The notes under the pieces were generated by a model. That model made no database searches and was not told the DNA's origin. It was given only the letters and a program-made list of their open reading frames with translations. 27,197 nt of DNA from a virus: the IMG/VR virus record IMGVR_UViG_3300046507_000741, positions 1 through 27,197 of that record; one strand, 5' to 3'. Made by a program: the position numbers and the translations under genes. Below are positions 11,480-17,718 of the stretch, piece by piece (position 1 is the first letter of the stretch; every line of letters starts with the position of its first letter).

Positions 11480-11886
11480 CAGACGGCGCTCCAGGACCGC
11501 AGCATGACCGAGCGAGGCAGGCGGATCAGACCGTGCTCGCCGGGGCCGACCAGGGTTTCGCCCTCGATGACCATGACGGCCAAGCCGGTCGCGGTCCGCA
11601 CCAAGCCGCCGTCGCCCCGGGCGGCCCGCGCGGGGGCGATCGGCGTCAGGACGGTGTCGACAGCCGACTCGAGTCCGCCCAGGCGCTTGAGAACGCGCAG
11701 CGCGCCGCGCGGCGAGGTCCAGTCAGGCAGCGCGGCCAGGCGGTCCACGCCGGTCTGCGCCAGCACCGCGCCGCCGAAGAAGCTGATGCAGTCATTCGCG
11801 CGCTTGCCCCATGCGAACCCGGTTCGCATCCGGGACTCGATGAACGCCACTAGCGCGTCGTGGTCACGCGCCTGATCACTCGACAT
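11479..11886 (-). CDS. DUF6950-like protein (K-like, NlpC/P60-related)
   Basis: A 135-residue protein started at the ATG at 11886, overlapping the upstream gene by 11 bp; a longer in-frame upstream extension is read out of the previous gene and is rejected. The motif FAWGKRANDCISFFGGAVL (residues 24-42, Cys33) is the characteristic DUF6950 signature, which resembles a short NlpC/P60 peptidase core. The lambda K protein at this position also has an NlpC/P60 domain. It likely sits in the tail tip and may act on peptidoglycan during entry, though a full Cys-His-His triad is not obvious here and it may be structural only. A perfect palindrome copy (11811-11829) encodes M-R-T-G-F-A inside this gene. 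Confidence 0.7.
   Translation of the reverse strand: MSSDQARDHDALVAFIESRMRTGFAWGKRANDCISFFGGAVLAQTGVDRLAALPDWTSPRGALRVLKRLGGLESAVDTVLTPIAPARAARGDGGLVRTATGLAVMVIEGETLVGPGEHGLIRLPRSVMLRSWSAV
11811..11829. repeat. Palindrome family copy, perfect 19 bp
   Basis: ATGCGAACC-C-GGTTCGCAT, arms of 9 bp with a single-base centre, inside the DUF6950-like gene. It is read as M-R-T-G-F-A, a different frame from the copies at 7559 and 23563. Confidence 0.85.
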
Positions 11887-12520
11887 AAGCCGCCAGCCCC
11901 GTGTGTTGGTAGAAATTGCTGACCAGGGCGTTCGGCACCGCCGACGCGGCGCGCTGGGGCGGCTTGCCACCCCAGTTCAGGGTGATTTCGCCGGCATAGG
12001 CGACTTGCTTGAAACCCCCGTCCGAGCCGACGATCAAGCGCTGGTCCGCGTCCGTGCGCATGCGGCCCGACCGCCGTCCCAAGCCGCGAACCGAGCCCTC
12101 GATGTTCAGCGTGATGGCCGACGTTCCGCCGATCTCATCCTCGATCGGCATCCGGTCGCAGCGGCCACGCAGCGCGACCTTCGCCGACAGCATGGTCGAG
12201 CCGGTCTGATCGAACAGCAGTTCGTACAGAACGGCTGGCGCGCCGCGCACCGACAGCGTGTCGACCAGGGCCAGGATGTTGGGATCGACGCCCGAGAGCG
12301 TCAGGGTCGCGCCTTGCTCGGCGGTGCCCAGCTGCCCTCCGGCGACCGAGGCCAGGCCCCGGTCGCCGATCGGTTGGAAGGTCTTGCCGTCCAGCTCCAG
12401 GACGTAATGGCCGCCCCAGACGCCCCACGGGCCCGTGGCAAGGTCCAAGTACAGCGCACCCACGGCCAAGGCCGTGCCGTCGTCCAGGGCGGCCTGGGTG
12501 GCTTCCGAATAGGTATGCAT
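11876..12520 (-). CDS. Minor tail protein (L-like position)
   Basis: A 214-residue protein. I choose the ATG at 12520 because GAGGG stands 9 nt upstream, overlapping the stop of the previous gene; the in-frame extension to 12610 is coding sequence of that neighbour. The sequence is beta-rich, with a W-G-V-W-G-G motif near residue 35 and an acidic IEDEIGG segment near 135, and ends in YVE. It lies between the tape-measure/distal-tail genes and the K-like gene, the place of lambda L. It probably forms part of the tail tip hub. No Cys cluster like the lambda L iron-sulfur site is visible. The family name is not certain. Confidence 0.6.
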   Translation of the reverse strand: MHTYSEATQAALDDGTALAVGALYLDLATGPWGVWGGHYVLELDGKTFQPIGDRGLASVAGGQLGTAEQGATLTLSGVDPNILALVDTLSVRGAPAVLYELLFDQTGSTMLSAKVALRGRCDRMPIEDEIGGTSAITLNIEGSVRGLGRRSGRMRTDADQRLIVGSDGGFKQVAYAGEITLNWGGKPPQRAASAVPNALVSNFYQHTGLAAYVE

Positions 12521-12530
12521 GGGACAGCCC

Positions 12531-13208
12531 TCAGGGCAGGAGTTGCTGCAGGGCCTTGATCTGGCCGGTGATCGCCGTCTGGCGGGTCTTGCCGCCCATC
12601 TGGGTTTCACCAGGGACCAGCTTCATCAGACAGTTGGGCCGATCGAGATTGGCCACGGCCCCAATCGGGACGAGGGTGGTGGGAAGCGGCGGCTCGACCG
12701 TGACCACCAGCTGACCCGCCCCATTGGCGACCAGCGGCGCGTCGACCGACCGCACCAGCGCGCGGCGCGCCTGACCGCTCGTCACCCACTCGAAGCCCAC
12801 ATAGTCGCCCCAGGTGAACACGAAGCCGGCCGGCAAGCCGGTGAGGGTGAGCACATCGCGCGTGCCGTTGACGGACCAGGTCGTGGCCTTGCCATCGAAG
12901 GCGCCGCCGCCGGCGCGGACCATCCCGCCCAGGCCGTCAGGATAGGCGCGAGGGTACGGCCGGGCTTGCTCACAGCCGAAGAACAGCCGGCCAGGGCCAC
13001 GCTGGGCCGAGACCCACGCGCGCCACTCGTCGGCCCGATCCTGACCAACCGTTGGCAAGGTCCAGTCAGCGCCCCAGAGCGGGAAGCCCGCCGTGATGCC
13101 GCCCAGCCGTCCGACGGCCTCCGGCGACAGGTAGTCGACGCGCTGGATCTCGAACGATTCTTTGATCACGCCCGCCAGGGGCATGGCGCGTGGGAAGATG
13201 ATCGCCAT
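12531..13208 (-). CDS. Minor/distal tail protein (M- or Dit-like position)
   Basis: A 225-residue beta-rich protein directly downstream of the tape-measure gene (stop-to-start gap 3 bp). Dit or M-type proteins that cap the tape measure and connect tube to tip are normally encoded here. Visible features are an N-terminal strand-rich region with WGADWTLP, several Gly-rich turns around residues 95-105, and a Gln/Lys-rich helical C-terminus. No enzymatic motif. The call rests mainly on gene order and size; sequence recognition is weak. Confidence 0.6.
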   Translation of the reverse strand: MAIIFPRAMPLAGVIKESFEIQRVDYLSPEAVGRLGGITAGFPLWGADWTLPTVGQDRADEWRAWVSAQRGPGRLFFGCEQARPYPRAYPDGLGGMVRAGGGAFDGKATTWSVNGTRDVLTLTGLPAGFVFTWGDYVGFEWVTSGQARRALVRSVDAPLVANGAGQLVVTVEPPLPTTLVPIGAVANLDRPNCLMKLVPGETQMGGKTRQTAITGQIKALQQLLP

Positions 13209-13211
13209 GCG

Positions 13212-15671
13212 TTAGGCCACCTTGATGGTGCGGCGGGCCAGACCGTCATTCACCGCGGCCGTCACCCGGCTTTGGAAATTGGCTTCCATCGCCGCGAGCT
13301 GGGCGCGCAAACGCCCGATTTCCTCGCTGTCGCCGCCCGTCACGGTGAGAACCGGAGCGAAGGTCGCCGAGACGCTGACCGGGCCGTTACCGCCGCCGGT
13401 GATCGCCGATCGCGCCTGCATGGCGGCGCGGTCGTTGGCGGCGGCCATGGCGACCGACGACTGGTGGTCATAGACCTTCGAACCCTTGGGAAGGTCGATC
13501 AGCTCGGCTCCCTCTTCGCCGACCCAGGTAAGACCGCCACGCCAGTTGTCGGTGCCGTTAGCGTTCGCACCAAAATAGTGCGCGGCTGCGTTGACCGCCG
13601 TGTCGATCCAGCCCGACTTGGAGCCGTCCTTCTTTCCGAACGCGGCATTGGTGATGCTGTCTGCCAAGGCCGAGGCGGCAGCGTACTTCAGGCGGTCGGT
13701 GAACACGTCGAAGAAATCGCCGCCGGTCATGCCCGCCATCAAGCCGTCGTGCAGGGCCTCGCCCGAGTTGACGCGCAGGTCCTCGATGAACGCCGTCGTC
13801 GCCGTATAGGGGACGATGTCCGCGCCGCTCAGGGCTTTGGAAACACGCTCGGACGAGGACACGAACTGATCCTTCGCGAGCTCGGCGTCGGAATAGGCCT
13901 TCTGGACCGCCGCGAACTCCGCCTCCATCTCGGCGGCCACCTGTTTGTTCGCGTCGCGCCAGGCCACCGCCCACCTCACGCCGTCGCGGGTGGCCGAGAC
14001 GATCAACTGCTGGATGCGCAGCTGGCGTTCGGCGTAGTCGATCGCCGATGGATCGTTCAGGGCCTTGGCGATGTCGAGCTGCCCGCGAAGGCCTTGGGTC
14101 TTGAGCTCCTGGGCCTTGCGCTCGGCTTCGGCCGCCTCGCGGGCCTCCTTCGCCTGCTCCCGCACGCCCTTCGCGGCGTCGGACGAGGCCTTTCGTTGAG
14201 CACGGGCCAGGGCGGCGGCCTGCTGGGCGGCGGTCTTGTAGCCCGCGCCTAGGGCGTTTATCTGGCTATCCAATTCCTTCAGCGCCGCCTTGCTGGCCGC
14301 GTCGTTGACGCCCAGGCCCACCAGCTTCTCGCGGTCCGCCTTGAGACCCGCTAGCTTCGTATCGTTCGGATTGTACTGGTCGACGAGCTTTTGGCGATCG
14401 ACGCTGCGCTGGCTTAGGCCAGCAGCCTTCAGGCGCACTTGTTCGGCGGCATAGCGCCGATTTATCTCTGCAATCTCGCGATCAAATTCGGTGATTAGGT
14501 GGTCTGAGCCACCGAACATTTTTCGCTGTTCCTTCGCCTTGGCGGCGCGAAGGTCCGCGAGACGCTGCGCATCGTCTCCTCCCGTCATTGCGCGGTCAAC
14601 GGCCCGGCCGACTGCATCCCAGGTATTGGAAGCAATCCGCCCAAGGCCTTCGAGCGCATGGCCCCAGCCGGTAGTCGCCGCGCTGGCGGCGAGCAGCGAG
14701 CCCTCAAGTTTGTCCACGAGGATGGCTTGCGCTTCTGCCTCCCGGCCAGCGCGGGCCAGGTTCTCGATGTGGCGCAACTCGCTGGCGTCCAGGAAGTGCA
14801 GCTTGTCGTTCAGGTCCGCCGCACCTTTCGCCGGATCGGCGAACGCCGCGCCCAGTTCCTTGGTCGCCGCCGTGGCGTCCTGGCTGGTGGTCAACGCATA
14901 ACGCTGCGTCAAGCCGATCAGGTCGTCGAGCACCTGGCCACTGATGCGGCCGGTCTGGACATAGGCGATGCCCGCCTCGCGCGCCGCCCGAACGCTCATC
15001 TCGCCGGCCTTGGCGCCGGCATCTGCGGAAGCCGCCAGTTGATCGGCGGTCACTCCCGATGCCGCCCCGAGGCCCTGGGTGGCGACCGTCATCTTGACGG
15101 TTTCCGCCTCATACTGCGCCTGGGCCACAGCCAAGGCGACTACAGCGCCGGCCGTCGCGGTGACGCCTACACCCAGAGCGATCATCGCTCCCGACGCCTT
15201 GAACCCGCTGGTTGCCACGGCGTCGAGGATTTGCGGGCCTTGCTGGAACAGGATGGTATCGGCACTCGCACCACCAGTGGCCGAGGTGAGAATGTCCGCC
15301 CCCTGACGGAACAGGTTTGTCACGCCCGCTCGCTGCTGGCGGGTCATGCCCTTCCCTCCCGCTGAGAAGGCCTCAGCTGAGTCCCGCGCCGACTTCTCGC
15401 CGCCGCCATTCACACCGAGAATGGCGTTGAACTTGGCTTGGTGCTCCTGCTGGGTCTCATACTCCCGCGCCGCCTTAGCCATTTCCTTGTATTTGGCCAT
15501 CTGGCGGGTGGCGGCGTCTTCTGCCTTCTTGGCCGTCACGGCGGCGGCGTCGAATGCGCCGCCGATATCCTTACCGGCCTGCTGGCCGGCCGTAGCGACC
15601 TCGGTGAAGTCGCGTTTGACCTCGGCCTTGCCCTCGGTGTTCAGGCGAATGCCGACCTGGCGGGTGGTCAT
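13212..15671 (-). CDS. Tail tape-measure protein
   Basis: An 819-residue protein, long and largely helical, with a hydrophobic segment at about 160-184 and extended Ala/Lys/Glu-rich coiled-coil stretches (about 430-580). Residues about 105-350 resemble the prophage tail-length tape-measure domain (TMP_2), including LDASELRHIENLARAGRE. Its length should set tail length: at roughly 1.5 angstrom per residue this predicts a tail of about 120 nm. The ATG overlaps the stop of the frameshifted T frame (ATGA at 15668-15671), which strongly supports the T reading described separately. It acts inside the tail tube and is ejected with the DNA. Confidence 0.85.
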   Translation of the reverse strand: MTTRQVGIRLNTEGKAEVKRDFTEVATAGQQAGKDIGGAFDAAAVTAKKAEDAATRQMAKYKEMAKAAREYETQQEHQAKFNAILGVNGGGEKSARDSAEAFSAGGKGMTRQQRAGVTNLFRQGADILTSATGGASADTILFQQGPQILDAVATSGFKASGAMIALGVGVTATAGAVVALAVAQAQYEAETVKMTVATQGLGAASGVTADQLAASADAGAKAGEMSVRAAREAGIAYVQTGRISGQVLDDLIGLTQRYALTTSQDATAATKELGAAFADPAKGAADLNDKLHFLDASELRHIENLARAGREAEAQAILVDKLEGSLLAASAATTGWGHALEGLGRIASNTWDAVGRAVDRAMTGGDDAQRLADLRAAKAKEQRKMFGGSDHLITEFDREIAEINRRYAAEQVRLKAAGLSQRSVDRQKLVDQYNPNDTKLAGLKADREKLVGLGVNDAASKAALKELDSQINALGAGYKTAAQQAAALARAQRKASSDAAKGVREQAKEAREAAEAERKAQELKTQGLRGQLDIAKALNDPSAIDYAERQLRIQQLIVSATRDGVRWAVAWRDANKQVAAEMEAEFAAVQKAYSDAELAKDQFVSSSERVSKALSGADIVPYTATTAFIEDLRVNSGEALHDGLMAGMTGGDFFDVFTDRLKYAAASALADSITNAAFGKKDGSKSGWIDTAVNAAAHYFGANANGTDNWRGGLTWVGEEGAELIDLPKGSKVYDHQSSVAMAAANDRAAMQARSAITGGGNGPVSVSATFAPVLTVTGGDSEEIGRLRAQLAAMEANFQSRVTAAVNDGLARRTIKVA

Positions 15672-16386
15672 GTCCGTGGCCTCCAGGCGAAGACGATGTA
15701 GGGCTCGATGTCGGCCGCGACCTCGATCGTCATGGCGACGTCGACATCCAGGCTCTGGGCGACCAGGGCCACGGCGGGAAGGTCGAGGGCGTAGGGTCCG
15801 TTCAGGTCGCTGCGCAGCTGACGCTCACACAGCTGGAGGGCCGCCCAGACGGCCTCGCCCTCTTCGGTCAGGCAGGCGTTGCGGACGTTCGGGCACTTCC
15901 CGCAGATGGATTCGCACGCGGCGCAGAAGTCCCGGCCGCCCCACGCTTCGCCGAGGTCGCCGTCTTGGCCGTCCTGGCCTTCGTCGTCTTCCGCGCCCCC
16001 GCCGCCGGCATAGCGCCAGCGGGCAAGGGCGCGGATACGTTTTTTTCCGCATCCCGCGTCAGGATCGGGATGACGAAGCCCTGGTCGATGGCGCGATAGG
16101 CCTCCGGCACCTCGGTCATCAACATCTCCAGGCTTTGCGGCGTCAGCTCCAGGAGCTGCCCGTCCTCGTCGCCCACGCCCTCCCAGGACAGCGCGCCCCA
16201 GGCGGCCAGCGCCACCGTGAACGCGACGCTCGCGTCGGCGGCGTCGCCACCGGCCTCGACGACGACGCCCGCCGCGCGTCGGCCGGCGACAACCCCTGCC
16301 GTGGGCTTGTCGGAGCGGAAGAGGATGGCCGCGCCATCGGGAAGCGCGACCCGGATATCCGGACGGCCGGAACGAACTCTCAGCAT
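15668..16386 (-). CDS. Tail chaperone G-T, made by -1 ribosomal frameshift
   Basis: Reading zero frame from 16386 to the slippery heptamer at 16045-16039 and then slipping back one base gives a 239-residue fusion: 116 residues of G plus 123 of T. The T frame has no stop from 16039 until TGA at 15670-15668, which overlaps the tape-measure ATG exactly as in lambda, where T ends just before H. The T part has an acidic Gly-rich linker, a Cys cluster (Cys155, 158, 162, 165, 172) and a helical region (AVWAALQLCERQL) then DLPAVALVAQSLDV resembling DUF1799-type T proteins. G-T recruits tail tube subunits onto the tape measure. There is no independent start with a ribosome site for T. Confidence 0.8.
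15868..16386 (-). CDS. Tail assembly chaperone G (unshifted product)
   Basis: The 172-residue zero-frame product. Residues 1-112 have the look of siphophage G-type tail chaperones (a WEGVGDEDGQLLELTPQSLEML core). After the slippery site the zero frame continues for 56 low-complexity residues rich in Ala, Thr, Lys and Arg before stopping at 15868, so this segment overlaps the T frame. G coats the tape measure before tube assembly and is absent from the finished virion. The Shine-Dalgarno is weak (GGGG about 10 nt upstream), and a palindrome copy lies in the leader (16411-16429). Starts just downstream of the tail tube gene. Confidence 0.75.
   Translation of the reverse strand: MLRVRSGRPDIRVALPDGAAILFRSDKPTAGVVAGRRAAGVVVEAGGDAADASVAFTVALAAWGALSWEGVGDEDGQLLELTPQSLEMLMTEVPEAYRAIDQGFVIPILTRDAEKNVSAPLPAGAMPAAGARKTTKARTAKTATSAKRGAAGTSAPRANPSAGSARTSATPA
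16039..16045 (-). other. Programmed -1 frameshift site A-AAA-AAC
   Basis: On the minus strand the zero-frame codons are GCG GAA AAA AAC, so the X-XXY-YYZ heptamer A-AAA-AAC is perfectly phased. It lies within a run of seven A. About 15 nt downstream a GC-rich segment (CCCGC ... GCGGG with an inner GGC/GCC pair) could form a stem-loop that stimulates slipping. The heptamer is canonical; the efficiency in this host is unknown. Confidence 0.8.
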
Positions 16387-16410: not shown

Positions 16411-16429
16411 ATGCGAACCAGGTTCGCGT
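16411..16429. repeat. Palindrome family copy between tail tube and G genes
   Basis: ATGCGAACC-A-GGTTCGCGT matches the consensus at 15 of 16 arm positions. It occupies most of the 42-bp non-coding gap and touches the tail tube stop codon. This non-coding copy shows that the element is not just a by-product of protein conservation. In mRNA it would fold as a hairpin 25 nt before the G start. Confidence 0.8.
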
Positions 16430-17718
16430 CAGTAGGCGTCGACGTCGTTGACCAGGGTGACGACCAGGGCCTTTTGGCCTTGGGCCGGATAGGCCTGGCA
16501 GTTGAACGTCTGCTGGATGCCGCCCGGGCCGCTGATCGAACGCTTGGTCTTGGGCAGCCGGACCGCCTGCATTCGCATCGTCAGGCCCTTGCCCGGCCCC
16601 TTCGACCAGCCGAGCGAGACGTCGACCGCCTGTTTGTTGACGGCCTTCTGCTGGAGAGACCGGTCCTTGAATCGAACGGTGAACGACGGGGTGATCGTGC
16701 AGTTCGCGCCGTCCGCGCCGTCGATCCGCCCGTCGGGACGGATGTTCTCGGCCTTCTCCAGGTTGTTGCTGAAGTTCATGTTGGCCGTCACCACTTCGCC
16801 CAGTGGGACGCCCGCGTCGGTGATCTCTCCCGCCGCCTGAGCGAACAGTTCCAAGACCAGCTCCGTCAGGGCGCCGGCCACGCTGGCGTCCGCCTCGGCC
16901 TCGCCCTGACAGACCAGGTTGACCGTGGCCCGCAGCCCGCCGGAGCGCTGCATGGCGATGGCCAGGGTGTTGCCCATCGCGCCGTAGTTCATGGCCGACG
17001 CCGGCACCTCGGGATTGGTGATTTCGATGCAGGCGTCGGGCAGAGTCTGCGCAGCCGACATGAAGACGTGGTTGTAGGGGCCGACCGCGGAACCGCCCGC
17101 CAGTGTCGCACCGGACACCGTGGCGTTCGAAGTGCCGCCCGCCGCGATCGTCATGGCGTTGCCGCCGACGCCGATCGTGTCATGGGTGACCTTGATCGTC
17201 GAATAGGTCCGGTCGGTCGAATAGCTGGCTGCCGCGACCCCGGCGACGGCGCTGGCGTTCAGCGCCCAGACCGTGTTTCGAACCGTCTCGGCCATGTTCG
17301 CGCCGATCAGGATTTCGTTCGCGGCCGGGGCGGCGGCCTTGTAGGTGAAAATCTGACCGCCCACGGTGATCGTTGCGTTCGCCGCCGGTTGCGCCGTGAA
17401 GGTGTAGAGGCCCGTGGCGGCGACGCCTTGTGTCGTGGTCGGGGCGCCAAAGACCAGCTTCAGCCACTTGCCGAAGTTGCGCACATCGACCGGCACGGTC
17501 ACGTCGCCGTCGTTGTCGACCGGACCCTCTTCGGGTTGCTGCGGATCGCGGCCGAGACCCAGGATGCCTGGGTCGGTCAGCTGCTGCTCTTCGCCCAGGT
17601 TGGCCGAATTGAACGGCACCTTGGTGTACGCCCCGCCAGCCTCGATGGCCCCGTAGACGCCGGTGGAATTGAAGGCGAGCGCCATCACAGCGTTCGCGCC
17701 GAAAGCGCGGCGACCCAT
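16429..17718 (-). CDS. Major tail tube protein with inserted Ig-like domain
   Basis: A 429-residue protein in the lambda V position. The N-terminal (1-100) and C-terminal (about 215-429) parts fit the phage tube_2 family, with characteristic strands (VPFNSANLGEEQ, NGDVTVPVD-like and VRFKDRSLQQKAVN). Residues about 113-209 form a separate repetitive beta domain (ATITVGGQIFTYKA ... GGNAMTIAAGG ... VSGATLAGG), a module often inserted in tail tube proteins to decorate the tail surface. It polymerises into the hollow tail tube. A Shine-Dalgarno (TGGAGA) lies 8 nt upstream. The unusual length for the family is explained by the insertion. Confidence 0.85.
   Translation of the reverse strand: MGRRAFGANAVMALAFNSTGVYGAIEAGGAYTKVPFNSANLGEEQQLTDPGILGLGRDPQQPEEGPVDNDGDVTVPVDVRNFGKWLKLVFGAPTTTQGVAATGLYTFTAQPAANATITVGGQIFTYKAAAPAANEILIGANMAETVRNTVWALNASAVAGVAAASYSTDRTYSTIKVTHDTIGVGGNAMTIAAGGTSNATVSGATLAGGSAVGPYNHVFMSAAQTLPDACIEITNPEVPASAMNYGAMGNTLAIAMQRSGGLRATVNLVCQGEAEADASVAGALTELVLELFAQAAGEITDAGVPLGEVVTANMNFSNNLEKAENIRPDGRIDGADGANCTITPSFTVRFKDRSLQQKAVNKQAVDVSLGWSKGPGKGLTMRMQAVRLPKTKRSISGPGGIQQTFNCQAYPAQGQKALVVTLVNDVDAY

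Follow-up and report, generated by a model that had tools for sequence, protein, structure and literature searches.

The tail assembly chaperones G and G-T of phage lambda are reportedly the subject of work by Levin et al. (1993) and by Xu, Hendrix and Duda (2004, 2013). It is established that lambda G/G-T frameshifting occurs and is widely conserved (PMC5009743). In phiCbK-like Caulobacter phages, a pre-tape measure chaperone that also has a longer form, produced via AAAAAAC, or via GGGAAAC in Colossus, was described in 2012 (PMC3556154), and for Rhodobacter phage RcKemmy and other RcC phages the frameshift has been termed usual (PMC8601537). The arrangement considered here is thus already known, as published Caulobacter and Rhodobacter phage genomes describe the same frameshift. 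We analysed a 27,197-nucleotide stretch of viral DNA (IMG/VR virus record IMGVR_UViG_3300046507_000741, positions 1 to 27,197; hereafter the window). Judged by its sequence, this Caulobacter-type siphophage very probably makes G and G-T by lambda-like programmed −1 frameshifting at A-AAA-AAC, followed by a hairpin.

The window shares with lambda the gene order, a heptamer of the X-XXY-YYZ form close to the 3' end of G at which a −1 shift takes place (in the window, by prediction), and a T frame whose end overlaps the tape-measure start. It differs in the heptamer, which is G_GGA_AAG in lambda (located at 610-616 of locus L151) and A_AAA_AAC in the window, and in having a T with a four-cysteine motif and a strong downstream hairpin. 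A preliminary description had likened the locus to lambda G/G-T. Gene order, the family match of G and the conserved heptamer bear this out, but sequence similarity to lambda T is undetectable (hhalign probability 0.4%, E 0.14, with a single lambda sequence as the comparison). We regard the window T as equivalent to lambda T in position and mechanism, and not as demonstrably homologous to it.

With RcKemmy, the window shares a homologous T (28% identity), the gene order and a conserved hairpin; the RcKemmy heptamer differs (GGGAAAC), and its record annotates the tail assembly chaperone as a joined gene. Two Ccr phage pre-tape measure chaperones are weak fold matches of the window T. The phiCbK-type phages are large, and their likeness to T was assessed by fold, with a weak match.

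Gene order and the slip site

The genes run, on the minus strand, tail tube, G, T and tape measure. The upstream neighbour of G encodes the tail tube protein (16429..17718; PF18906 Phage_tube_2, E 1e-34), and the gene following T encodes the tail tape measure protein (13212..15671; PF06791 TMP_2, E 1e-35). Gene G itself (15868..16386, minus strand) starts with the ATG at 16386 and stops at 15868. Its zero-frame product of 172 codons matches the profile of phrog_313 'Tail assembly chaperone' (E 7e-7), a family matched by 32 of the 38 aligned G sequences (best 1e-18). The AlphaFold model of G (pLDDT 83.6) is of low confidence after about residue 117, which is the slip site, suggesting a folded domain of residues 1-117 with a disordered tail behind it. 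The HK97 tail assembly chaperone 2OB9 was the top VIA-align row for G (Z 4.5, below 5; rmsd 4.9; 93 of 107 residues aligned) and was absent among the Foldseek matches listed for G. PDB sequence searches with G and T gave nothing useful. The minus strand also encodes, towards the end of the structural module, a transglutaminase-like cysteine peptidase (1609-1995; Peptidase_C93/BTLCP, E 1.5e-40).

The slippery heptamer A-AAA-AAC (16039..16045, minus strand) lies near codon 115 of the 172 in G and is in phase with it, the G codons being AAA (16044-16042) and AAC (16041-16039); both the position and the phase given in the preliminary description were verified. The site forms a run of seven A (16046-16040). 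AAAAAAC occurs once in the window, counting both strands, with 0.78 expected by shuffling. The lone heptamer is near its chance count, but it is in phase and in precisely the expected gene. A second in-phase heptamer-like site, GGGTTTC at 12017 on the minus strand (ORF 11876-12610), has a 55-codon open −1 frame and is probably due to chance.

The T frame (15668..16045, minus strand, −1), reached only by the shift, runs for 123 codons past the site and ends in a TGA (15670-15668) that overlaps the tape-measure ATG (15671-15669) as ATGA (15671-15668). From the preceding stop at 17182 as far as the slip site, this frame contains no ATG, GTG or TTG, and past the site none occurs until codon 91 of 125. 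The frame is startless, as had been claimed, and its length and its overlap with the tape-measure ATG also agree with the preliminary description. The expectation that gene callers would miss T also held: it is absent from a listing of ORFs of at least 60 codons, and the Nostoc and Synechococcus phage records show a shortened ORF only. In this GC-rich genome, 25% of codons drawn at random from the neighbouring genes likewise have a −1 frame that stays open for 125 codons or more, so the openness of T is weak evidence by itself and its significance rests on the relatives.

Conservation of the heptamer and the hairpin

Family searches in viral contigs, bacterial genomes and phage records provided 149 T-relative loci. 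A motif search of genome contigs yielded no relatives when the window T was the only query and 64 when the family alignment was used. All 149 T-encoding loci, and the window, carry a canonical heptamer at the same position (AAAAAAC in 127 of these 150 rows, GGGAAAC in 18 and AAAAAAA in 5). The rows comprise 116 distinct 66-mers, and the 149 loci are not all independent, some being one prophage present in two collections. The search pattern was restricted to T frames with Lys-Arg, which excluded heptamers ending in G and biased the last base to C or A, but it left free the first three bases (XXX) and the choice between AAA and AAG. XXX was always AAA or GGG, and the YYY codon was always AAA, whereas lysine elsewhere in the T frames was encoded by AAA and AAG in the ratio 52:110.

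A second search dispensed with the motif requirement and covered whole genomes, 299 of them in the family of Caulobacter sp. BP25. Ten of the 299 had an intact T match, and all ten carried AAAAAAC or AAAAAAA at the exact site. The comparison with relatives proposed in the preliminary description thus found neither T-frame stops nor loss of the heptamer in close relatives. A tube homologue lies upstream in 140 of the 149 loci, and in 124 of the 150 rows a long downstream ORF has its start overlapped by the T stop or no more than 60 nt from it. One genome of the BP25 family (G113) contains a decayed T-like match with stops (L162), probably the remnant of a prophage or a spurious match. An upstream SD-like stimulator was not enriched (8% observed vs 21% in shuffles), and no Rfam family covers the slip site. 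In E. coli, A_AAA_AAC is less shifty than A_AAA_AAG (PMC5009743), which counts against the frameshift reading.

A putative stimulatory hairpin was predicted 3' of the slip site (15990..16035, minus strand) from folding energy, shuffles and relatives. Its lower stem begins 3 nt past the heptamer, and the core common to the relatives begins at about +8. The window hairpin has a folding energy of −43.9 kcal/mol (z −5.5 vs dinucleotide shuffles) and also stands out against synonymous randomisation of the T codons (z −3.05, P = 0.007; family mean z −2.1). Nearly all relatives have a strong stem-loop after the site; for the named 13-pair stem, 87.5% of cells were paired, compared with 41-56% for slid versions. 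Covariation in the stem was modest, with four pairs changed on both sides and a score reached by 8 of 500 shuffles. RNAalifold found no structure in the mixed alignment (A3), probably because the extra codons of the Caulobacter-type members shift the 3' arm. In the subset alignment (A4) it returned only four pairs, in another register, and did not recover the full stem. The hairpin likely stimulates the shift.

Selection on the T frame and the encoded protein

We estimated dN/dS in the part of T that does not overlap G. Pairing the window with each of its three nearest relatives gave 0.13-0.36, and the pair of loci L003 and L004 gave 0.03; the overall range was 0.03-0.46. For the zero-frame tail of G past the site, values were 1.2-1.6. 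T is under purifying selection and the zero-frame tail of G is not. Thus, the shifted frame is the constrained one, and the AlphaFold model of G, folded only to about residue 117, agrees with this. Conservation reaches the slip site, K2 and R3 of T being invariant in 51 sequences.

The Pfam family DUF7697 (PF24752) was matched by 45 of the 51 aligned T sequences (best 1e-28) and DUF1799 (PF08809) by 8 of the 51 (best 2e-5). The window T itself had no match to DUF7697 up to E 1 and was below detection for DUF1799, so it is tied to DUF7697 through its relatives only. Both are Pfam families described as of unknown function. In some phage records the T domain, which DUF7697 appears to represent, is truncated.

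The structure model of T has a pLDDT of 87.8. Enterobacter phage F20 supplied the best BFVD fold match of this model (Foldseek), a tape measure chaperone (E 0.016, probability 1.00, TM about 0.4), and annotated tape measure chaperones of T1-like phages were the model's best viral fold matches, all weak by E-value; a PDB fold search with T gave nothing useful. A four-cysteine motif lies at residues 41-51 of T (window 15671-16045), with three of the cysteines invariant in the 51 aligned sequences. By pattern search, a motif of the CxxC(x3)CxxCP type is present in 126 of 132 distinct T sequences, and the remaining six have cysteines at wider spacing. We would guess that these cysteines form a metal site.

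Alternative explanations and meaning of the locus

The fusion could be produced without ribosomal slippage if RNA polymerase slipped on a run of A. The window site is a seven-A run and A7 is present in 125 of the 150 rows, which favours this, but the 18 GGGAAAC rows have three A only and fit tandem tRNA slippage instead, and the downstream hairpin is maintained. We therefore consider polymerase slippage very improbable. It is less probable still that T is translated alone from an internal or non-canonical start, with no fusion made. Nostoc and Synechococcus phage records do annotate a short separate ORF inside T; these ORFs, however, lack the beginning of T and its cysteine motif. In the window T, the first ATG, GTG or TTG is codon 91, and the invariant K2 and R3 carry conservation right up to the slip site. 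Least probable of all is a chance heptamer beside a chance open frame in GC-rich DNA, despite the quarter of neighbouring codons with an equally open −1 frame. Comparative data already refute it: T is under purifying selection, its relatives have family matches, and the same heptamer accompanies them at about 150 loci.

Programmed ribosomal frameshifting is thus the explanation that we favour, and we infer the shift, its efficiency and the resulting protein contacts as follows. Most ribosomes would translate G and terminate at 15868. A minority, aided by the hairpin immediately 3' of A-AAA-AAC, would slip back one base at that heptamer and read on in the T frame, yielding a 239-residue G-T fusion (116 residues from G, 123 from T). 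If lambda is a guide, the tape measure protein would be coated by G and by the G portion of the fusion, T would recruit tail tube subunits and so start polymerisation, and both chaperones would leave afterwards.

The points that are new are small: the DUF7697 assignment, the four-cysteine motif and the conserved hairpin. We think it rather probable that, throughout the siphophages of alphaproteobacteria, DUF7697 represents the T domain of tail assembly chaperones and is made by frameshifting only. It would then be a variant of T with four cysteines, perhaps binding metal, and in alphaproteobacterial hosts its production would depend on A_AAA_AAC or G_GGA_AAC together with a fixed hairpin that is also coding-constrained. 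These results correct an annotation gap, that of a conserved startless domain missed or truncated by gene callers, and assign a likely role to Pfam DUF7697. The set of about 150 members, with its fixed heptamer and hairpin, is a natural dataset for −1 frameshifting outside E. coli.
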